Shown: positions 48,142-62,693 of the stretch, one piece after another
Numbering within the stretch: position 1 is the stretch's first letter
Layout of the letters: each line of letters opens with the position of its first letter
Source: an uncultured Pelagibacteraceae bacterium
GTDB taxonomy: Bacteria; Pseudomonadota; Alphaproteobacteria; Pelagibacterales; Pelagibacteraceae
Length of the DNA stretch: 64,000 nucleotides
Direction: 5' to 3'
NCBI GenBank assembly: GCA_902571375.1
Contig: CACGBP010000003.1
Location: forward strand, 62,001-126,000
Position numbers and translations under genes: made by a program
The notes under the pieces: generated by a model
What the model saw: only the letters and a program-made list of their open reading frames with translations
Database searches by the model: none
What the model was told of the DNA's origin: nothing

Positions 48142-48597
48142 ATGTTTTTATCAACCTACGAAAACAAATTAGACAAAAAAGGAAGGGTGTCAGTGCCTGC
48201 AAGTTTTAGATCTTATTTATCTAACTTAGGATACAATGGAATAATTTGTTATCCATCCTTTAATAACCAATCAATAGAAGCATGGCCACAAGATAGAATT
48301 GAAAAAATTTCAAACACAATAGACTCGTTGAGTCCTTTTGAGGAAAAAAGAGATTTTTTTGCAACGTCAATATTATCTGAAAGTATAAATTTACAATTTG
48401 ATAGTGAAGGAAGAGTTTTACTTACTCAAAAATTATTAAAACATGCAAAAATAAAAAGCAACATGTTGTTTGTTGGTCAGGGAAAAACTTTCCAGATATG
48501 GGAACCAACAATATTTGAAAAATTTAAGACTAATGCCAGAAAAAAAGCAAACATAAATCGAGCGAGTCTTAAATGGGAGCATCAATTAAATAAATAA
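48142..48597 (+). CDS. mraZ: Transcriptional regulator MraZ
   Basis: The 151-residue AbrB-like protein has the two tandem MraZ half-sites: [23 protein letters not shown] at residues 4-26 and the degenerate second copy [23 protein letters not shown] around 77-99, then [13 protein letters not shown]. MraZ binds TGGG repeats in its own promoter and represses the division cluster. Such boxes are present immediately upstream (48088-48111). ftsZ follows 14 bases after its stop. Confidence 0.95.
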
Positions 48598-48611
48598 CGG
48601 GGGATAAAAAA

Positions 48612-50078
48612 ATGACAATTAATTTTAAAGCACCAGAGATTAAAGAGTTACAGCCAAGACTTTTAGTAATGGGAATCGGCGGAGCAGGTGGAAATGCAAT
48701 AAATGAAATGATTGATAACGGTATGCAAGGAGTAGAATTTATTGCTGTAAATACTGATGCTCAAGATTTAAAGCATAGTAAAGCAAAATCAAAAATCCAA
48801 ATTGGATTGAATTTAACTAAAGGATTGGGAGCAGGTGCAAAACTTGACATTGGTCAAGCTGCTGCTGATGAGTCTTTAAATGATATAGTTAACATTTTGC
48901 AAGGTGCAAACATGGTTTTTATTGCAGCTGGTATGGGTGGTGGAACTGGCACAGGTGCTGCACATGTAATAGCTAGAGCTGCGAAAGAATTAAATATACT
49001 TACAGTAGGTGTTGTTACACTTCCTTTTTTATATGAAGGTCCATCAAGAATGAGAAGAGCACAACAAGGGCTTGAAGAACTAAGAAGGCACGTTGATACA
49101 ATCATAGTCATTCCTAATCAAAACTTATTTAAAATAGCAAATGAGCAAACTACATTTGAAGAGTCTTTTAACCTTTCGAATAATGTTTTGATGCATGGAG
49201 TACAAAGTATAACTGATTTAATGGTTAGACCAGGATTGATTAACCTTGATTTTGCAGATGTTGAATCTGTTATGGCTTCAATGGGTAAAGCTATGATGGG
49301 AACTGGAGAAGCAGAAGGTGAGGGAAGAGCAATGAAGGCTGCTGAGATGGCAATTAGTAATCAATTAATAGATGATTATACATTAAAAGGAGCAAAAGGA
49401 TTACTAGTTAATATAACTGGTGGAAAAGATTTAAAACTTTTTGAAGTTGATGAAGCAGTAAACAAGGTAAGAGCCGAGGTGGATCCTGAAGCAGAATTGA
49501 TAATTGGTGCCATTACTGACCCCGAGCTTGATGGCAAGATGAGAGTTTCTATTGTTGCTACATCTTTAGACGGACAACAACCTGAAACTAAATCAGTTAT
49601 TAATATGGTTCATCGTATACAAAACCGTAATCCAGGATACTCTGATTTTACCTCTAATAATGGAACAGCTGCATTTAGTTTTTCTAACACAAGCTCGAAT
49701 CCTATTTCCCATGGAGCAAATGCTCTTAAACTTGAAAATGAGATAGTTTCAGAAAACATTGATAAAAATGAATCTGTGGATAATGTCAATCAACAATATC
49801 ACGAAGAGTTATTAAAAAATCAAGAAATTGAAAATATTCTTGGAGATGAGTTTGATCAAAATGAAACTTCATTTTCACAGGAAGCTATTGAAACAACAGA
49901 GCCAGAACAGAATATTTCAAATGATTTAAAAGAATTTGGTGTAGATACAAATGAACCAGATTTATTTAATTCAGAAAATCAGTCATCTAATACAGAAGAC
50001 TTACTTGGGGAAAATGATGATGACAGTGATGAAGATGATCTTGAAATTCCCGCATTTTTAAGAAGACAAAAAAATTAA
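48612..50078 (+). CDS. ftsZ: Cell division protein FtsZ
   Basis: FtsZ polymerises at midcell and recruits the divisome. The 488-residue protein has the GTP-binding [13 protein letters not shown], the tubulin signature [13 protein letters not shown] near residues 103-115, and the T7-loop [12 protein letters not shown] long acidic, disordered linker (about 320-470) precedes the conserved C-terminal tail [13 protein letters not shown], which normally binds FtsA and other anchors. A GGGGG ribosome-binding site lies at 48599-48603. In most bacteria ftsZ is at the far end of the cluster after ftsA; here it is second, right after mraZ. Confidence 0.97.
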
Positions 50079-50096
50079 TGGTCTTCAAAAAAATAA

Positions 50097-51107
50097 ATGG
50101 AAGCCACCATGGTATCGGATGCTCCAAAACATTATCCGGTGCTGCTTAATGAAATAATTAGCATTATTACCCCTCAACATGGTGGCACATTTATAGATTG
50201 TACTTTTGGTCAAGGTGGATACACAAAAAAGATTTTAAGCTATAAAGATACAAAAGTTATAGCTTTAGATAGAGACCTTAAAACCAAAAAAAATGCAGAA
50301 AATATTCTCAATAAATTTCAAGATAGATTCGTATTTAAAAATAAAAAGTTCAGTCAATTAAAAGATCTTAAAATTAAAAATGAAAATATCAAAGGTATTA
50401 TTTTCGATCTTGGATATTCATACACTCAAATAAAGGACTTATCAAAGGGATTGTCATTTGACTCGACTGGAGAATTAAATATGCAAATGGGAATAAATAG
50501 TTTTTCAGCAAATGATGTAATTAATAAATTAGATTATGAAGAATTAGAAAAAATTTTTAAGTTTTTTGGTGAGGAAAGAGAGTCTAAAAAAATTGCATTA
50601 AATATTGTAAAAGAGAGAAAATTTAAAAATATAGATACACAAACTTTAGTTCAAATAATTGAAAAAACAAAAAAAAAGAAAAACTTCAAAGTACATGCAG
50701 CTACAAAAACTTTTCAAGCAATTAGAATTTTTGTAAATAATGAGATTACTGAACTAATCTACGGCTTAATTTCTGCTTTAAAAGTTTTAAAAAAGGATGG
50801 TGTTTTAGCAGTTGTTACATTTCATTCATTAGAGGATAAAATTGTCAAATATTTCTTTAGAAGCTTATCTGAGAAAAAAAGTGTTTCAAGATATCTCCCA
50901 AAAATTAATCAACCAGAACCATTATTAGAAATGCTTGAAAAAAAACCCTTAACACCATCTCCAAAAGAATTAAAAGAAAATATTTCCTCAAGATCAGCAA
51001 AACTAAGATATGCAGTTAAAAAAAAAAATTTTTTTGATTTTGAAACTGACATTCTGAAGAAATTTGATTATTTAATTGAAATTGAGAACTTTGGTAAAAA
51101 ATTATGA
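50097..51107 (+). CDS. rsmH: 16S rRNA (cytosine-1402 N4) methyltransferase
   Basis: RsmH (MraW) methylates C1402 of 16S rRNA. The 336-residue protein has [13 protein letters not shown] near the N-terminus, the SAM-binding [19 protein letters not shown], the family-specific [42 protein letters not shown], and [16 protein letters not shown]. An ATG at 50109 ([13 protein letters not shown]) is an equally good start; no ribosome-binding site decides between them. It overlaps the ftsL-like gene by 4 bases. Confidence 0.95.
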
Positions 51108-51409
51108 AAAAATTTTTCACAATTTTTCTAATTTTATCTTTAATAATGTTTACAGCTATAATTAAAAATTCTTCAAAAACAATTGAGGATGAAACTTTTT
51201 TAATAGAAGAAAATATAAGAGGGCTAAAAAAAGATTTGGAAAGAACCAAATTAGAGTATGACTATCTCAGTTCTGCAGAAAAATTACTAGAGTATCAAAT
51301 TCTATATTTTGATGATGAGTTGGTGAAGAAAAATATCGAAGAAATAAAAATAATTCACAAAAATTTAGATAATCTTGAAATAAAACCTTTCAAAATAAGT
51401 AATGAATAA
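51104..51409 (+). CDS. FtsL-like divisome protein
   Basis: The 101-residue bitopic protein has one N-terminal membrane helix (about residues 4-20) and then a charged coiled coil ([26 protein letters not shown]) ending without a further domain. FtsL is poorly conserved, so the call rests on this layout and on the position between rsmH and ftsI. FtsL bridges FtsQ/FtsB and FtsW/FtsI. It overlaps both neighbours (4 and 8 bases). Confidence 0.72.
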
Positions 51410-53093: not shown

Positions 53094-55934
53094 ATGTTAC
53101 TTAAAGATTATATTCCAAATGTTAAAAAAGAATTAAAAAATATTTTTTTTTCAGGTATTGCTTTTGAAAGTTCAAAAGTTAAAAAAAATGATATTTTTTT
53201 TGCAATTAAAGGCAATAATTTTGATGGTAATAAATACATCAATGAAGCAATTAAAAAAGGTGCTGTAGCAATTATCTCAGAAAAAAAAATAAACTTAAAA
53301 AAAAAAATTCTATATATAAATACACACAATCCCAGAAAATTATTAGCAGAAGTTTCATTTAAGATTTATAATAAAATTCCAAAAAATTTAATTGCTATTA
53401 CAGGCACTAATGGAAAATCCTCAGTCGCAGATTTTTATTATCAACTTTTAAAGTTAAATCATAAAAAAATTGCCTCGATAGGGACTTTAGGTGTTAAATC
53501 AAAACATTTTAATCTAAGCTTATCAAATACAACAATTGACCCATTAAAACTAGGTCAAATATTAACTAAACTCAAAAATAAAAAGATTGAAAATGTTATT
53601 ATGGAGGCTTCAAGCCATGGTCTTAAACAAAATAGATTAGATGGTTTAAAATTTAATATAGGTATATTCACAAATTTATCTCAAGATCATCTTGATTATC
53701 ATAAAAATTTGAAAAATTATTTACAAGCAAAACTCTATTTATTTAAAAATCTAATAAAAAATAATGGCAATATAATAACAGATGAAAATATTCCTGAATT
53801 TCAAAAGATTAAAAGAATAGCAATAAATAAAAAATTGAATTTAAATTTTATAAATCATAAAAAGAATAATTTTCAAATTTTATCTCACGACTTTCAAGGA
53901 GAATCACAAATACTTAAAATAAGATATGACAATTCAATAAGATTAGTAAAGCTAAATCTGATTGGAAAAATTCAACTAAAAAACTTGTTAATGGCAATTA
54001 TTGCTGCAAAAAAAAGCAAACTTAAACTAAAAAAAATTTTTGAAAGTATTCCAAAAATAAAACCTGTTGAAGGAAGATTTCAAAAAATAGGGAAAATTAA
54101 AAATGGTTCTATGGTAATACTTGATTATGCTCATACACCGGAGGCTTTAAAAACATGTCTTTTAAATTTAAGAGAGCAATTTCCTTTTAAAAAAATTTCT
54201 TTATTGTTTGGGTGTGGTGGAAATAGAGATCAAAATAAAAGAGCAAAAATGGGAAAAATTGCAAATGATTATTCAGATAAAATTTATCTGACTGATGATA
54301 ACCCAAGATTTGAAGATCCAGAAAAGATAAGAAGAGATATTAAAAAAGCAATTTTTAGAAAAAATATGATTGAAATATCCAATAGAAAAAATGCTATAAA
54401 GGTAGGAATTGAAGATTTAAATACAGGTGATATTTTATTGGTAGCTGGTAAGGGACATGAGAAAACACAAGACACTGGACATCGAAAAGTTTTTTTTTCA
54501 GATAAAAAAATTATTTTAGAATCAATTAAAGTTAAGAATTTCAATTTAACAAATAATTTAAAATTAAATTTAGTTAAAGAAGTTTCAGGGTTTAAGAATA
54601 AATTAAAATTTACTAATTTAAAAAAAGCAAAAATTAATTCTAAAGAAGTTAAAAAAAATGATATTTTTTTTGCAATTAAAGGAAAAAAAAATGATGGAAA
54701 TAAATTTGTTCAAGAGGCGTTAAAAAGAAAAGCCTCAATAGCTGTTGTAAACAAAATCCAAAAAAATCTTGGTTTAGGAAAACAAATAAAAGTCAAAAAC
54801 TCTTTAAAATGTTTGACCCAAATTTCAAATAATTATAGAAAAAATATCGATACAAAAATAATTGCGATTACTGGAAGTTGTGGAAAAACTACACTTAAAG
54901 AATTGTTAGGTAATTCATTAAAAAAAATTTCAAGAGTTAGTATTTCTCCAAAATCTTATAATAATAAATATGGCGTACCATTGAGTCTTTTTAATTTAAA
55001 TAAAAATGATGATTATGGAGTCTTAGAAATAGGAATGGATAAAAAGGGAGAGATAGATTATCTATCAAATATTATAAAACCAGATGTTAGCGTCATCACT
55101 AATATAAATTATGCACATATCAAAAATTTTAAGAATATAAAACAGATTGCTTTAGCCAAATCAGAAATTATCTATAATACTAGGTCTAGTGGCTATGTAA
55201 TTTTAAATGCAGATGATAATTTTTTTAAACTACATAATACAATCGCCAAAAAAAAGAAACTAAAAGTAATTTCTTTTGGTATTAAAAATAATAAAGCTAA
55301 CATTAAATTCATCAATATCAAAAAAGTCAGAAGAAATTTTATAATAAGTATTAAATTAAATAATTTAAAAAAAATGTTTATAATTTCTAATAATTATACA
55401 AATAACATTTATAATATCTTAGCAAGTGTAGCGGTGATGAGTATTTATATTAATATTGCTAAATTAAGTAAAAATATTTTTTTTAACTTTAAGATACCTA
55501 ATGGGAGAGGCAATCTTTCAAAAATTAAAATAAATGGTAAAAAAATTAATTTAATTGATGAAAGTTATAACTCCAACCCTTTATCATTACAAAATGCAAT
55601 ACTTAATTATGATAAATTAGATACTAAAGCATCAAAAAAATATCTATTACTTGGTGATATGCTAGAACTTGGAAAACATTCAAAAAAACTTCATCAATCT
55701 ATAGCACCAATAATAAATAAAACCAAACTAAGCAAAGTCTTCATAAAAGGAAAAAAAGCTTCATTTATATATGATGGGCTTGCGAAATCGAAAAAAGGTA
55801 AAGTATTAAGAAATAAATATGAAATTATTAATTTGATCAAAAATGATTTAAATAATAATGATTATTTGATGTTAAAAGCCTCAAATGCGACAGGTTTTAA
55901 TCAGATAGTTAATGAAATCAAAGGATTAAATTAA
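53094..55934 (+). CDS. MurE-MurF fusion: bifunctional UDP-MurNAc peptide ligase
   Basis: One uninterrupted 946-codon reading frame contains two complete Mur ligases. Residues about 1-480 are MurE: N-terminal UDP-binding domain, ATP loop AITGTNGKSSVADFYY (TGTNGKS at 103-109), the ASSHGLKQNRLDG segment, and the DDNPRFEDP motif expected for meso-diaminopimelate specificity. Residues about 490-946 are MurF: its own N-terminal domain, ATP loop AITGSCGKTTLKELLG near 592, YNNKYGVPLSLF, VLEIGMDKKGEI and DESYNSNPLSL. It would add meso-DAP and then D-Ala-D-Ala. In most alphaproteobacteria these are two genes. mraY begins at the next base. Confidence 0.95.
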   Translation: MLLKDYIPNVKKELKNIFFSGIAFESSKVKKNDIFFAIKGNNFDGNKYINEAIKKGAVAIISEKKINLKKKILYINTHNPRKLLAEVSFKIYNKIPKNLIAITGTNGKSSVADFYYQLLKLNHKKIASIGTLGVKSKHFNLSLSNTTIDPLKLGQILTKLKNKKIENVIMEASSHGLKQNRLDGLKFNIGIFTNLSQDHLDYHKNLKNYLQAKLYLFKNLIKNNGNIITDENIPEFQKIKRIAINKKLNLNFINHKKNNFQILSHDFQGESQILKIRYDNSIRLVKLNLIGKIQLKNLLMAIIAAKKSKLKLKKIFESIPKIKPVEGRFQKIGKIKNGSMVILDYAHTPEALKTCLLNLREQFPFKKISLLFGCGGNRDQNKRAKMGKIANDYSDKIYLTDDNPRFEDPEKIRRDIKKAIFRKNMIEISNRKNAIKVGIEDLNTGDILLVAGKGHEKTQDTGHRKVFFSDKKIILESIKVKNFNLTNNLKLNLVKEVSGFKNKLKFTNLKKAKINSKEVKKNDIFFAIKGKKNDGNKFVQEALKRKASIAVVNKIQKNLGLGKQIKVKNSLKCLTQISNNYRKNIDTKIIAITGSCGKTTLKELLGNSLKKISRVSISPKSYNNKYGVPLSLFNLNKNDDYGVLEIGMDKKGEIDYLSNIIKPDVSVITNINYAHIKNFKNIKQIALAKSEIIYNTRSSGYVILNADDNFFKLHNTIAKKKKLKVISFGIKNNKANIKFINIKKVRRNFIISIKLNNLKKMFIISNNYTNNIYNILASVAVMSIYINIAKLSKNIFFNFKIPNGRGNLSKIKINGKKINLIDESYNSNPLSLQNAILNYDKLDTKASKKYLLLGDMLELGKHSKKLHQSIAPIINKTKLSKVFIKGKKASFIYDGLAKSKKGKVLRNKYEIINLIKNDLNNNDYLMLKASNATGFNQIVNEIKGLN
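53176..53212 (+). repeat. 37-bp exact in-frame repeat, copy 1 (MurE half)
   Basis: This stretch, encoding KVKKNDIFFAIKG, is identical over 37 bases to 54646-54682 in the MurF half. The copies are 1470 bases apart (490 codons), in the same frame, at the equivalent position of the two N-terminal domains. Confidence 0.9.
54646..54682 (+). repeat. 37-bp exact in-frame repeat, copy 2 (MurF half)
   Basis: Second copy of the repeat at 53176-53212, encoding EVKKNDIFFAIKG in the MurF N-terminal domain. Flanking codons diverge quickly, although the surrounding protein stays alike (DGNK follows in both). Confidence 0.9.
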
Positions 55935-58320: not shown

Positions 58321-59434
58321 AAAAATCATCTACAGTCTTTATTACGAATGGTGGAAGAATATTGATAAGTTTATCTTTTCTTTGATAATCTTGTTATTTT
58401 TTATAGGGTTATTTTTTTCTTTAGTATCTACTTCATTGATAGTTTCAGACAAACTTAACACTAATGATTATTTATTTTTTTTTAAACACTTATTTTTTAT
58501 AATTTTAGGTTTCTTAATAATTTTTCTTCTTTCTTTAATTGACCGAGATAAACTTTTTAATTTTTCAATATTTATTTTTTTATTTTCTTTGATTTTTTTA
58601 TTTTTAGTCCCACTTATTGGTATAGAAGTAAAAGGTTCAAAAAGATGGATAGACTTTTATTTTTTACCAAGATTTCAACCTATAGAATTAGTTAAGCCTT
58701 TTTTAATTATTTCAATAAGTTTAATCTTAAGTAACGAAAAATATAAAAATATTTATTTGAAATATTCATTTTCTTTTTTCCTAACACTAATAGTTGCTTT
58801 ATTATTGATATTACAACCTGATATTGGACAAACTCTCTTAGTCTTTTTTATTTGGTCAATTCTTATATTCACCTCAGGAATTAATGTTATTTTTTTAATA
58901 ATATTTTTTTTGTTTATAGTTTTCACACTCTCTTATTTGATTTTTTTTGTATCTGAGTTTGAATATATTAAAAATAGAATATTTTCTTTTTTTAATTCAG
59001 AAACCGGAACACATAATGCTCAATCAGAAAAAGCAATTGAGTCTATTAGTAGTGGCGGATATTTTGGAAAGGGAATAGGAGAAGGGACCTTAAAAAATCG
59101 AGTACCAGAAGCTCATACAGATTATATCATATCTGTAATTTCAGAAGAGTTTGGTATTATTGCTATTATATTAATTCTGTTATTATTTTTAACATTAGCT
59201 TATTCCGTGTTTAAAAAAATTAACTTTGAAAATGAGGAAAGAACAAAATTAGCTTTAGTAGGATGTGCAAGTCTAATTTTAATACAAGCAATGATACACA
59301 TAGGAGTTAACATTAGGTTGTTGCCAACGACAGGAATGACACTTCCTTTTATAAGTTATGGAGGTTCGTCAATTATAAGTATATCTATTATATCAGGGAT
59401 AATATTAAATTTAACTAAAAGAAAGTTTATTTAG
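58310..59434 (+). CDS. ftsW: Septal peptidoglycan polymerase FtsW
   Basis: The 374-residue SEDS-family protein has about ten membrane helices and the conserved extracellular motif GKGIGEGTLKNRVPEAHTDYIISVISEEFG, preceded by LQPDIGQTLLVF, and near the end LPTTGMTLPFISYGGSS. It polymerises septal glycan with FtsI. Its start overlaps murD by 11 bases. The next gene is ddl after 6 bases; the usual murG-murC-murB are not here. Confidence 0.96.
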   Translation: MKNKKIIYSLYYEWWKNIDKFIFSLIILLFFIGLFFSLVSTSLIVSDKLNTNDYLFFFKHLFFIILGFLIIFLLSLIDRDKLFNFSIFIFLFSLIFLFLVPLIGIEVKGSKRWIDFYFLPRFQPIELVKPFLIISISLILSNEKYKNIYLKYSFSFFLTLIVALLLILQPDIGQTLLVFFIWSILIFTSGINVIFLIIFFLFIVFTLSYLIFFVSEFEYIKNRIFSFFNSETGTHNAQSEKAIESISSGGYFGKGIGEGTLKNRVPEAHTDYIISVISEEFGIIAIILILLLFLTLAYSVFKKINFENEERTKLALVGCASLILIQAMIHIGVNIRLLPTTGMTLPFISYGGSSIISISIISGIILNLTKRKFI

Positions 59435-59440
59435 ATATTC

Positions 59441-60343
59441 ATGAGAAAAAAAGTTTTAATTCTTTATGGAGGTACATCAAAAGAAAGAGCTATAAGTTTA
59501 GAGACTGGTAAACAAGTTGCGAAAGAACTGAAGAAAAAATACTCAATAAAATTATGTGAGCCAAAAAATCTAGATTTATTAATAAAGTCTTTTAAACCTG
59601 ATATAATTTTTAATGGATTACATGGTCAATTCGGTGAAGATGGATACATCCAGACAATATTAGAAACTTATAAAATTCCGTATACTCATTCAGGACCTTT
59701 GGCTTCACTTTTAGCTATGAATAAGGAAATATCAAAAAAAATTTTTTTGAAAAATAAAATACTTACACCTAAATATCTAAAATATGATTTTACAAAAAAA
59801 ATTGATAAAAAATTAATCAAAAGAAAATTAAAATTTCCAGTTGTAGTCAAGCCAAAAAATGAAGGCTCAAGTGTAAACGTTTTCATTTGTAGCGAAAAAA
59901 ACATTTCTAAAAATTTAGTAAAGTTAAAACATTATAAAGAAATATTAATTGAGGAATTTATAGGAGGTAGAGAGATACAAGTAGCCATTATGGGAAAGAG
60001 AAAGCTAGGTGCTATTGAATTGAAGCCGAAAAGAAAATTTTATGATTATAAAGCTAAGTATGAAAAAAAAGCAGGAACTGATCACATAATCCCAGTGGAA
60101 CTCCCAAAATCAAAAATGAATGATATTTTAAACATTGCTATGCTTGCACATAACTTAATTGGATGTAGAGGCATAACGAGATCAGATTTTAAATATTACA
60201 AAGGTAAGTTTTATTTACTTGAGATAAATACTCAACCAGGGATGACAAAACTTTCATTAGTACCTGAAATAGCTAATTATAATAATATAACATTTGTAAA
60301 GTTATTAGACTGGATGTTGAATGATGCATCAATTAATAGATAA
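59441..60343 (+). CDS. ddl: D-alanine-D-alanine ligase
   Basis: Ddl makes the D-Ala-D-Ala dipeptide used by the MurF half of murEF. The 300-residue ATP-grasp protein has ILYGGTSKERAISLETG, FNGLHGQFGEDGYIQTILE, VVKPKNEGSSVNVF, LIEEFIGGREIQVAIMG, TRSDFKYYKGKFYLLEINTQPGMT and the terminal MTKLSLVPEIA. Length and active-site motifs are normal. The 3' end overlaps ftsQ by 23 bases. Confidence 0.96.
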   Translation: MRKKVLILYGGTSKERAISLETGKQVAKELKKKYSIKLCEPKNLDLLIKSFKPDIIFNGLHGQFGEDGYIQTILETYKIPYTHSGPLASLLAMNKEISKKIFLKNKILTPKYLKYDFTKKIDKKLIKRKLKFPVVVKPKNEGSSVNVFICSEKNISKNLVKLKHYKEILIEEFIGGREIQVAIMGKRKLGAIELKPKRKFYDYKAKYEKKAGTDHIIPVELPKSKMNDILNIAMLAHNLIGCRGITRSDFKYYKGKFYLLEINTQPGMTKLSLVPEIANYNNITFVKLLDWMLNDASINR

Positions 60344-61007
60344 AAGAAAATATTTACTTTATTTATTTATTTTACTTTTATTATCAACAATCAATAGTCA
60401 ATCATTAATTAATTTAAAATTTTTTAAAATAAAAGATATTGAAATTTTAGAGGATAAATCAAACGTTAATAATTCTGTGAAAGAAATTATTGAGGATAAT
60501 TTATCAATTTTTAAAGACCAAAATATTTTTTTATTAGATGAAAAACTAATAGCAAAAAAAATTTCTGATAATAGTTGGATTTCAAATTTTTCAATTCAAA
60601 AAAAATATCCTTCAAAATTAATAGTAAATTTGAGAAAAACAGAGCCTATAGCAAAAATTATATTTGATAATGAAATTTTTTATATTGGATCAAATTTCAA
60701 GTTAATTAAATCTAAAATTCAATTTAATAATTTACCAAATATTTTTGGTAAACCTAAAATTGATCAATTTAAAAATCTAATCACTAACCTTAATTTATCC
60801 TCAATAAGTTATGAAGATATTTCAGATATTTATTATTTAAAATCTGGGAGGTGGAATTTAAAAATTCAGAATGACGTCATTATAAAGTTACCAAGAGATA
60901 ATATTCTTGAGTCTTTAAATTTAGTAAAAAAAATATTAGATAATGAAAGTATTAAAAGTAAAAATACTATTGATTTGACTGTAAAAAATCAAATAATAGT
61001 AGATTAA
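60321..61007 (+). CDS. ftsQ: Cell division protein FtsQ
   Basis: The 228-residue bitopic protein has a short basic N-terminus, one membrane helix (about residues 11-27), a POTRA domain (FFKIKDIEILEDKSNVNNSVKEIIEDN), and the FtsQ beta-domain (SWISNFSIQKKYPSKLIVNLRKTEPIAKI). FtsQ recruits the FtsL/FtsB/FtsW/FtsI module. Two adjacent ATG codons (60321 and 60324) are possible starts. It overlaps ddl by 23 bases and the next gene by one base. Confidence 0.88.
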   Translation: MMHQLIDKRKYLLYLFILLLLSTINSQSLINLKFFKIKDIEILEDKSNVNNSVKEIIEDNLSIFKDQNIFLLDEKLIAKKISDNSWISNFSIQKKYPSKLIVNLRKTEPIAKIIFDNEIFYIGSNFKLIKSKIQFNNLPNIFGKPKIDQFKNLITNLNLSSISYEDISDIYYLKSGRWNLKIQNDVIIKLPRDNILESLNLVKKILDNESIKSKNTIDLTVKNQIIVD

Positions 61008-61708
61008 TGACAAATCAAGATTTATTTAGAAGTTTTTTTTCAGTATCAAATAAAGAAATATCCATTTATGTCAAAAATATTAACTGTGATGAAATAGTTT
61101 TTTTTAAAAAAGAAAAAATTGATGACAATCAGAGTCATCTTTATAATGATTTTCTACAGAATTTTTTTCTAGAAAAAATAGAGGAAATAGAAGAACAGAT
61201 TAAATTATTTGTTGATAATATTTCATTAATAATTGAAAGTGAAAATATAGTTTCAATTCGATTTTCTCTAAAACAAAAAATTGAAAATAAAGTTATTTCC
61301 TTGAAAGAGTTAAAAAGCTTATTGTTAGTTGGTCAAGAGGAAATACTTAAATACAACCAAAATCTTTTACTAATTCATTTTCTAGTAGATTTAATTAATA
61401 TTGATGGAAGAATAGTTGAAACTATTGAGAATCAATTTGTAAAAAAATTTATGAGTATAGAATTAAGATTTATTTGCATTAATCAAAATACTGTTGATGA
61501 ATTCAAAAATTTATTTAAAAAAAAACAAATTTATTTAGAAAAAATTTTTTCTGCTGAATATTTAAAAGATTTTATGAAAAATAATGAAAATATAATTAAT
61601 TCAATAGATAAAGTAGAAAGTGGTATTAACAAATTAGAAGTCAGTTTAGTTCCAAAAAAGTCTATTAAAAAAGGTTTTTTCGAGACATTTTTTGATTATT
61701 TCAGTTAA
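61007..61708 (+). CDS. Reduced FtsA-like protein (1C/SHS2 domain plus amphipathic tail)
   Basis: This 233-residue protein occupies the position of ftsA between ftsQ and lpxC. FtsA is normally about 400-420 residues of actin fold. Residues about 100-185 (VISLKELKSLLLVGQEEIL, then LIHFLVDLINIDGRIVETI) follow the pattern of FtsA domain 1C, with its 'I..eDv..vl..a' helix and 'idg..gi.dP' strand. The last residues, KKGFFETFFDYFS, form an amphipathic helix like the FtsA membrane anchor. I see none of the actin-fold nucleotide motifs (no DxGT phosphate loop, no adenosine GG motif), and about half the protein is missing. The identification is by position and pattern, not close similarity. It may be a non-ATPase FtsZ anchor. 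Confidence 0.6.
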   Translation: MTNQDLFRSFFSVSNKEISIYVKNINCDEIVFFKKEKIDDNQSHLYNDFLQNFFLEKIEEIEEQIKLFVDNISLIIESENIVSIRFSLKQKIENKVISLKELKSLLLVGQEEILKYNQNLLLIHFLVDLINIDGRIVETIENQFVKKFMSIELRFICINQNTVDEFKNLFKKKQIYLEKIFSAEYLKDFMKNNENIINSIDKVESGINKLEVSLVPKKSIKKGFFETFFDYFS

Positions 61709-61772: not shown

Positions 61773-62693
61773 GTGCATAATTTAAGTCAAAAAACTGTAA
61801 AATCAGACATAAGCTTTAGCGGAATTGGTCTACATACAGGAAATGCTGTAGATTTAATAATAAAACCCGCGCAACCAAATAATGGAATTATTTTTAAAAG
61901 AACAGACCTAAAAGAGAATAATATTATAATCCCAGGAGTTTTTAATGTTTCAAGTGCAAGTTTTTGCACTACGATTTCAAATGATTTTGGTGTCAGTGTT
62001 TCGACAATTGAGCACTTAATGGGAGCATTGTTTATATTGGGCGTAGATAATGCTGTGATTGAAATTAACAATAATGAAGTTCCAATTCTCGATGGTTCAG
62101 CAAAAGTGTTTGTAGAAAAAATAACTAAAACTGGTTTAGAAGTAAGTAATCAACCAATAAGAATAATCAAAATTAATAAGAGAATTGATTATGTGGATGG
62201 TTCAAAATCTATTTGCTTAGAGCCAAATAATATTAATTTTGAAATTGATTTTAGTTTAGAGTATTCAAATTCAGTTATAGGAAATCAAAGCAATCACATA
62301 AATGTTTATGAAGATGATCTTTCAGACATTCTAAGCTCTAGAACTTTTTGTTTATACGAGGATATTGAAAAATTAAAAACTCTTGGCTTAGCTAGAGGTG
62401 GAAGTTTAGACAACGCAATAGTGGTTAAAGAAAAAGAAGTTCTTAACAAAGATGGTTTAAGAAATAAAAAAGAATTTGTAAATCACAAAATTTTAGACTG
62501 CATAGGGGATATTTATTTATCAGGATACAAAATGGTAGGTAAAATCAAGTGCACTCATGGTGGTCATAAATTAACAAATCAACTTTTGAGAAAAGTTTTT
62601 AGTGATAAAAATAATTATTCAATCATTGAAATTAAAGAAAAAAGCCTTCCCAGCACTCTTGTAAACAGAGGTTATTTAAAATCTATTGCATAA
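61773..62693 (+). CDS. lpxC: UDP-3-O-acyl-N-acetylglucosamine deacetylase
   Basis: LpxC commits UDP-GlcNAc derivatives to lipid A. The 306-residue protein starts with GTG at 61773. It has FSGIGLHTGNAVDLIIKPA, the zinc histidine in VSTIEHLMGALFI, ILDGSAKVFVE, RTFCLYEDIEKLKTLGLARGGSLDNAIV, and the second zinc site NHKILDCIGDIYLSG, followed by the catalytic HGGHKLTNQL. All ligands are present. It implies that a lipid A outer membrane is made. A 64-base spacer separates it from the FtsA-like gene. Confidence 0.97.
   Translation: MHNLSQKTVKSDISFSGIGLHTGNAVDLIIKPAQPNNGIIFKRTDLKENNIIIPGVFNVSSASFCTTISNDFGVSVSTIEHLMGALFILGVDNAVIEINNNEVPILDGSAKVFVEKITKTGLEVSNQPIRIIKINKRIDYVDGSKSICLEPNNINFEIDFSLEYSNSVIGNQSNHINVYEDDLSDILSSRTFCLYEDIEKLKTLGLARGGSLDNAIVVKEKEVLNKDGLRNKKEFVNHKILDCIGDIYLSGYKMVGKIKCTHGGHKLTNQLLRKVFSDKNNYSIIEIKEKSLPSTLVNRGYLKSIA

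Follow-up and report, generated by a model that had tools for sequence, protein, structure and literature searches.

A predicted domain-1-only FtsA: conserved deletion of the putative ATPase half in many SAR11 bacteria

What stands at the ftsA position of a SAR11 division cluster when the protein encoded there shows no ATPase half? The question is raised by an open reading frame (ORF) in the stretch of DNA analysed here (the window), 64,000 nucleotides of a contig from an uncultured Pelagibacteraceae bacterium. The ORF (61007..61708, + strand, as are all window features located below) has an ATG start and encodes 233 aa, with the stop codon included in these coordinates. The end of ftsQ (60321..61007; PF08478 and PF03799 above cut-off) overlaps its start by one base and lpxC (61773..62693; PF03331) lies downstream, so that the order of ftsQ, ORF and lpxC gives the division-cluster position expected for FtsA. 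An earlier note had proposed that the ORF encodes a minimal FtsA, lacking the ATPase half, that had escaped annotation. Profile, synteny and fold evidence now agree on the former, and the latter is borne out as far as family models go, no Pfam or NCBIfam model naming the window protein.

The surroundings of the ORF have features of their own. The ftsZ gene (48612..50078), with a conserved 13-residue tail at 50037-50075, lies about 11 kb upstream and is directly flanked by mraZ and mraW (rsmH) (48142-51409). At the ftsL position lies a 101-aa ORF (51104-51409) for which Pfam gave nothing significant, and a single ORF of 946 aa (53094-55934) resembles, when read by eye, a MurE-MurF fusion. Further on, ftsW ends 6 bases ahead of the ddl start (59434-59441), with no murG, murC or murB between them (names assigned by eye and position). 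These three genes gave tblastn matches at E 1e-10 in 48/50, 49/50 and 50/50 long lpxC loci, respectively, and in the relatives examined they occupy the interval from ftsW to ddl; none was found in the window or in the remainder of its 153-kb contig (genome 86% complete), and they may have been either lost or relocated. At one related locus (L078, 8562-9237), two ORFs (112 and 110 aa) stand in place of a single ftsQ ahead of the short ftsA.

Searched alone, the window protein has no family match: against Pfam it gave one sub-threshold row only (CEP15-like, E 0.22) and no PF02491 match, and against NCBIfam no row, including none for the ftsA equivalog TIGR01174 (cut-off 175.85 bits). The link to FtsA is provided by relatives at the same locus. 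A profile built from 13 long SAR11 FtsA sequences matches the window protein as two collinear pieces of the 385-position model, 4-190 (E 8.6e-21) and 340-384 (E 4.4e-6), and a two-piece collinear match was also obtained in 15 of the 16 other short-form genomes, the remaining one (G051) giving one piece. Comparison of a short-form profile with that of the long SAR11 FtsA returned a probability of 100 and an E-value of 2.2e-47 over columns 1-188. Against the PDB, the long-form profile matched solved FtsA (1e4f, E 7.5e-15), and the short-form profile ranked FtsA 7q6d first (E 0.0014, aligned to residues 53-188 of the solved FtsA), followed by 7q6g (E 0.0039), 7q6f (E 0.034) and then a non-FtsA row (E 0.32). 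Among individual short forms, L055 exceeds the PF02491 cut-off (26.7 vs 25.4 bits, residues 93-158), and L107 falls below cut-off both with PF02491 (22.9 bits) and with TIGR01174 (E 7.4e-10, 38.4 bits, 45-185 of 371).

Structure prediction points the same way. The AlphaFold2 model of the window protein (42 sequences; pLDDT 83.6, pTM 0.78) shows the strands and helix of subdomain 1A together with subdomain 1C and the final 1A helix; a tail helix is modelled with low confidence. Foldseek rows 1-19 were all FtsA (E 5.3e-11 to 1.3e-7), with PilM and GspL next. The 1C (SHS2) fold is indicated jointly by the predicted fold, the FtsA structural matches and the alignment of the short-form profile to solved FtsA. 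By fold alone the lead of FtsA is modest (VIA-align Z 11.7-13.9 vs 10.9 for GspL, 10.5 for PilM and about 9.7 for sugar kinases). For the HTCC9565 long form the prediction is a complete FtsA (pLDDT 82.5; Z 27.4-31.1 to FtsA), and predicted secondary structure places strands and helices over its residues 195-324, between the same two helices that in the short form follow directly, connecting helix 183-187 leading straight into the last 1A helix at 196-204. Overall, profiles and predicted models indicate that the window ORF almost certainly descends from FtsA.

The retained parts can be placed along the ORF. The N-terminal strands of subdomain 1A (residues 7-37, 61025..61117; DSSP of the predicted model) are followed by a 1A helix with the invariant Glu62 (residues 40-65, 61124..61201; model and alignment) and by subdomain 1C, the SHS2 insert, whose approximate limits (residues ~78-157, 61238..61477) come from alignment to solved FtsA and from the PF02491 match of L055. 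A second 1A part extends up to the connecting helix (residues ~158-187, 61478..61567; profile comparison and model), and the junction where domain 2 is absent (residues ~188-195, 61568..61591; two-piece profile match and alignment) leads to the last 1A helix (residues 196-204, 61592..61618; DSSP), equivalent to long-form helix 329-341. The protein ends in a putative membrane-targeting sequence, the amphipathic helix GFFETFFDYFS (residues 223-233, 61673..61705; model and alignment). The earlier description of the protein as 1C plus a helix was thus right about both of these parts and incomplete in one respect; since 1A is retained beside 1C (strands 7-37, helices 40-65 and 196-204), "domain 1 only" is more exact.

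For the C-terminal helix the case is made from sequence. It ranks among the best-conserved parts of the short form, Phe225, Glu226, Phe229 and Phe232 being conserved in at least 96% of 49 short forms, and a helix is predicted at 224-232, with low model confidence. Its hydrophobic moment of 0.47 was reached in 120 of 10000 shuffles, and a larger one, 0.67, occurs in another stretch of the window protein (from residue 134). Four other positions (57, 68, 174, 206) are conserved among short forms and not among long ones; the window protein deviates at 57.

What is missing is equally well delimited. Long and short forms align over domain 1 and the tail, the short form lacking one central block of about 150 profile positions, domain 2 (2A and 2B). 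This is where the profile match jumps from 190 to 340, and where all 49 short forms have 1-3 residues in the alignment against 137 in the long form L035. With 2A and 2B all missing, the short form has no phosphate-2 or adenosine motif, these regions falling within the missing block, and it lacks the known FtsZ-tail site as well as the longitudinal interface of 2A-2B. The remaining phosphate-1 position has eroded as well: Asp or Glu occupies it in 2/49 short forms vs 26/26 long forms, and the Asp-x-Gly motif is absent from the 1A strands of the window protein. The absence of both the nucleotide site and 2A/2B, as the earlier note had it, is therefore upheld. Descent from FtsA without these parts argues for a new FtsA variant that would have arisen by domain loss, and not for a new family.

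The short form is widespread in SAR11. Loci were anchored on lpxC (the 80 best SAR11 lpxC relatives), which makes their choice independent of the form of ftsA. A complete ORF at the ftsA place was found in 58 of the 80, 41 short (223-237 aa) and 17 long (368-388 aa), with none intermediate; the other 22, where the contig breaks off within the ORF or before reaching it, were left out here. For one locus (L036) a later start codon at the conserved position was taken, giving 236 instead of 244 aa. The ftsQ gene lies upstream in 41/41 short and 16/17 long loci, the contig ending there in the remaining one. A protein search of 147 family genomes gave matches in 63, with frames mostly of ~220-245 or ~370-430 aa alongside fragments and a few chance rows; in two of these genomes (G026 and G074) the C-terminal piece was matched again past a gap. 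In a survey of the order, 343/397 genomes matched, and the best 150 rows comprised 126 frames of 220-250 aa, 14 of at least 360 aa, 10 below 220 aa and none of 250-360 aa, proportions that do not amount to a frequency, since these rows are the best-scoring part of the results of a query rich in short forms. Beyond the order, 160 of 172 sampled Alphaproteobacteria (at least 90% complete, the window genome apart) matched PF02491, and no other short FtsA occurred among the best 150 of these 160 rows, in which all frames were at least 340 aa; the shortest, of 340 aa, sits at a contig start. As judged from these sequences and the predicted models, a natural, conserved deletion of the FtsA ATPase half is present in many SAR11 bacteria.

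A complete FtsA encoded elsewhere would change this reading. Run on 29 genomes, the long-FtsA profile matched neither a second FtsA nor a stand-alone domain 2 in any of the 17 with the short form, among them five single-contig genomes (G003, G017, G035, G063 and G078), and no full-length FtsA was found in the window genome (86% complete). The earlier suspicion that no complete ftsA exists elsewhere is thus supported for these genomes. In two of the 17 (G088 and G143) the short form was seen only at a contig end, and G109 gave no FtsA match in the same search. Several candidates were set aside. The sole PF14450 match in the window genome, a 344-aa ORF, reads by eye as MreB; weak second matches in frames of 372-396 aa occurred in five genomes, and the three examined read by eye as the tRNA thiolase MnmA; and a fragment in G069 that consists of domain 2 alone owes its form to the end of its contig at base 9085.

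Sequence also bears on the order of events. With the ftsA equivalog TIGR01174, the FtsA of another genus (L029) scores 230.6 bits, three long forms of the window genus score 72.5, 100.5 and 103.0, the short form L107 scores 38.4 and the window protein gives no score. The nucleotide motifs of the SAR11 long forms, read by eye, look worn. Together with the phosphate-1 counts, the falling scores and worn motifs suggest, at the level of sequence, that a weakening of the ATPase half preceded its loss. Two trees, both of a quick kind, bear on the number of losses. A housekeeping tree of lpxC, ddl and bamD (76 rows, 50 short and 26 long) requires 3 changes of form and weakly rejects a single short-form clade (p-AU 0.0305). 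In the ftsA domain-1 tree (75 rows, the frameshifted L188 excluded) the 49 short forms make up a single clade (SH-aLRT 96), and the window row stands on a very long branch. We lean towards a single origin of the short form, possibly followed by gene exchange.

How the short form could work depends on the contacts left to it. PMC8998562 places the FtsZ-binding region of FtsA in 2B and describes FtsA oligomers as forming via 1A-1C and 2A-2B contacts. PMC7613929 locates FtsN binding in the cleft between 1A and 1C, with most of it on 1C, and attributes the lateral interface of the FtsA double filament to 1C contacts. With the known FtsZ-tail site in the missing 2B, direct tethering would need a new contact or another partner. 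The anchor peptide of FtsZ is intact in the window, as the earlier note had observed, and the tail EIPAFLRRQ plus two residues ends FtsZ in 28/28 genomes, the 17 short-form genomes and others alike; of the 29 genomes searched, G101 alone gave no FtsZ match. In 23 of the 29, searched with models of known families, SepF and ZipA were each found in 0/23 and FtsE above its curated cut-off in 0/23, with below-cut-off ABC ATPase matches in all 23; in a control the FtsE model exceeded its cut-off in 7/14. SPOR matches occurred in 10/23 genomes (9 above cut-off), and the one locus examined, the window-genome match L199, has mltB-like and dacA-like neighbours and, judged by eye, resembles a lipoprotein of the RlpA type, so that no convincing FtsN, the known 1C partner, was found in this search. 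Since SepF, ZipA, FtsE above cut-off and a convincing FtsN were not found, cell division in SAR11 may be reduced or divergent to an unusual degree.

Our preferred explanation, which we consider probable, is that the ORF is the SAR11 FtsA after loss of the whole of domain 2, now acting as an ATP-independent membrane adaptor. The deletion would strip the faces known to serve ATP, FtsZ and the longitudinal filament, and leave the membrane helix and the partner-facing side. The remaining protein comprises 1A, 1C, a flexible linker and the amphipathic helix at the C terminus. From the absence of the nucleotide site and the 2A/2B faces we infer that the short FtsA would neither bind ATP nor polymerise into a longitudinal actin-like filament; most likely it would be a small adaptor located at the division site on the inner membrane, its 1A-1C surfaces serving divisome partners and perhaps also 1C-1C pairing.

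Two readings that deny it this function fare poorly. That what lies at the ftsA position is no FtsA at all, and either an unrelated protein or an actin-like one of the GspL/PilM type, might be suspected from the lack of a family match for the window protein alone and from the place of GspL and PilM directly behind FtsA in the fold search. It is countered by the intermediate same-locus sequences, the profile E-value of 2.2e-47 to long FtsA, the two-piece collinear match and the FtsA entries that head the PDB sequence matches, and we regard it as barely credible. A decaying relic, a late stage of FtsA loss with little function left, is slightly less far-fetched and still very improbable. Evolution is fast, the 41 short forms sharing only 22-32% identity with the window protein; the nucleotide motifs look worn by eye even in long forms; and breaks occur, with in-frame stops in 3 of the best 150 order-survey rows and, in the single-contig genome G078 (L018, ~1363-2052), a short ftsA whose frame has a single break, close to a homopolymer run in the N-terminal part, which may be either a sequencing error or real. 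However, short ftsA is under purifying selection: its dN/dS in nine close short-form pairs is 0.087-0.215, comparable to that of ftsQ in the same pairs (0.081-0.242; long ftsA, 0.119-0.151 in three pairs). Its lengths at the named loci are moreover confined to 223-237 aa, and the C-terminal helix is among its best-conserved parts, both of which count against a relic.

Within the adaptor explanation, direct FtsZ tethering and a recruiter-only role are nearly even in likelihood. In a direct tether working without ATP, the view of the earlier note, to which we give just short of an even chance, the FtsZ tail would be held on a new site of domain 1, for example the 1A face exposed by the loss of 2A, with the amphipathic helix as anchor. 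This would fit the unchanged EIPAFLRRQ tail in genomes of short and long forms and the failure of the SepF, ZipA and FtsE models to find an anchor above cut-off in the 23 genomes, and the positions conserved specifically in short forms (57, 68, 174 and 206) could mark the new surface, although the window protein differs at 57. On the other hand, the known site in 2B is gone (PMC8998562), other proteins that bind the FtsZ tail could equally well keep it unchanged, and the anchor searches covered known families in 23 genomes. Alternatively, the 1A-1C module would act at the membrane as a recruiter or regulator only, without FtsZ contact, and another protein would tether FtsZ, a reading scarcely less plausible. 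It accords with the retention of the FtsN-facing and lateral-contact parts and the loss of the FtsZ-facing part. In addition, the title of Corbin et al. 2004 states that late septation proteins interact with a subdomain of FtsA in a manner independent of the Z-ring; the subdomain is reportedly 1C. Against the recruiter stands that neither an FtsN-like partner nor an alternative tether was found in the genomes searched. Some other role for the adaptor is unlikely.

The boldest form of the adaptor explanation, which we advance tentatively and hold somewhat below even, is that in a large part of SAR11, a group that PMC10906006 counts among Earth's most abundant bacteria, FtsA is a half-actin, an ATP-independent tether that grips the FtsZ tail via a new site on domain 1. 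If so, the ATPase and actin-filament half of FtsA would be dispensable in living, free-growing bacteria. Current models of division-ring activation give a prominent place to polymerisation by FtsA and to its use of nucleotide (PMC7613929, PMC5508204 and PMC11323482). We found no report of a truncated SAR11 FtsA in the open PMC literature, as far as its accessible extracts go, and those of PMC2877005, PMC7203096, PMC5557255, PMC11994032, PMC10580974, PMC10906006 and PMC9275681 do not report a truncated FtsA. The conserved deletion of the actin half, the retention of the FtsZ tail and the failure to find any of three known FtsZ-tail or anchor families in place of that half make two questions testable, namely what the actin half of FtsA is for and how SAR11 attaches FtsZ to the membrane, with long-form sister species as natural controls.

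Among known systems, the nearest is FtsA itself (TIGR01174; PF14450 and PF02491; Thermotoga maritima 1e4f, E. coli 7q6d), with which the short SAR11 form has in common the locus beside ftsQ, subdomains 1A and 1C and the C-terminal amphipathic helix, and from which it differs in lacking 2A/2B and the phosphate-1 Asp. The long SAR11 FtsA (HTCC9565, 368 aa, L035) occupies the same locus and aligns with the short form end to end over domain 1 and the tail; unlike the short form it retains domain 2, although it is about 40 residues shorter overall than the 410-aa form of another genus and scores far below the NCBI ftsA cut-off (72.5 vs 175.85 bits). The cytoplasmic domain of GspL/EpsL (type II secretion) and PilM (type IV pilus) are actin-like folds that come next after FtsA in the fold ranking, with no synteny or sequence link to the short FtsA seen. 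SepF and ZipA are membrane anchors of FtsZ that use no nucleotide, and their folds are unrelated to that of FtsA; if the short FtsA tethers FtsZ without ATP, they would work like it.
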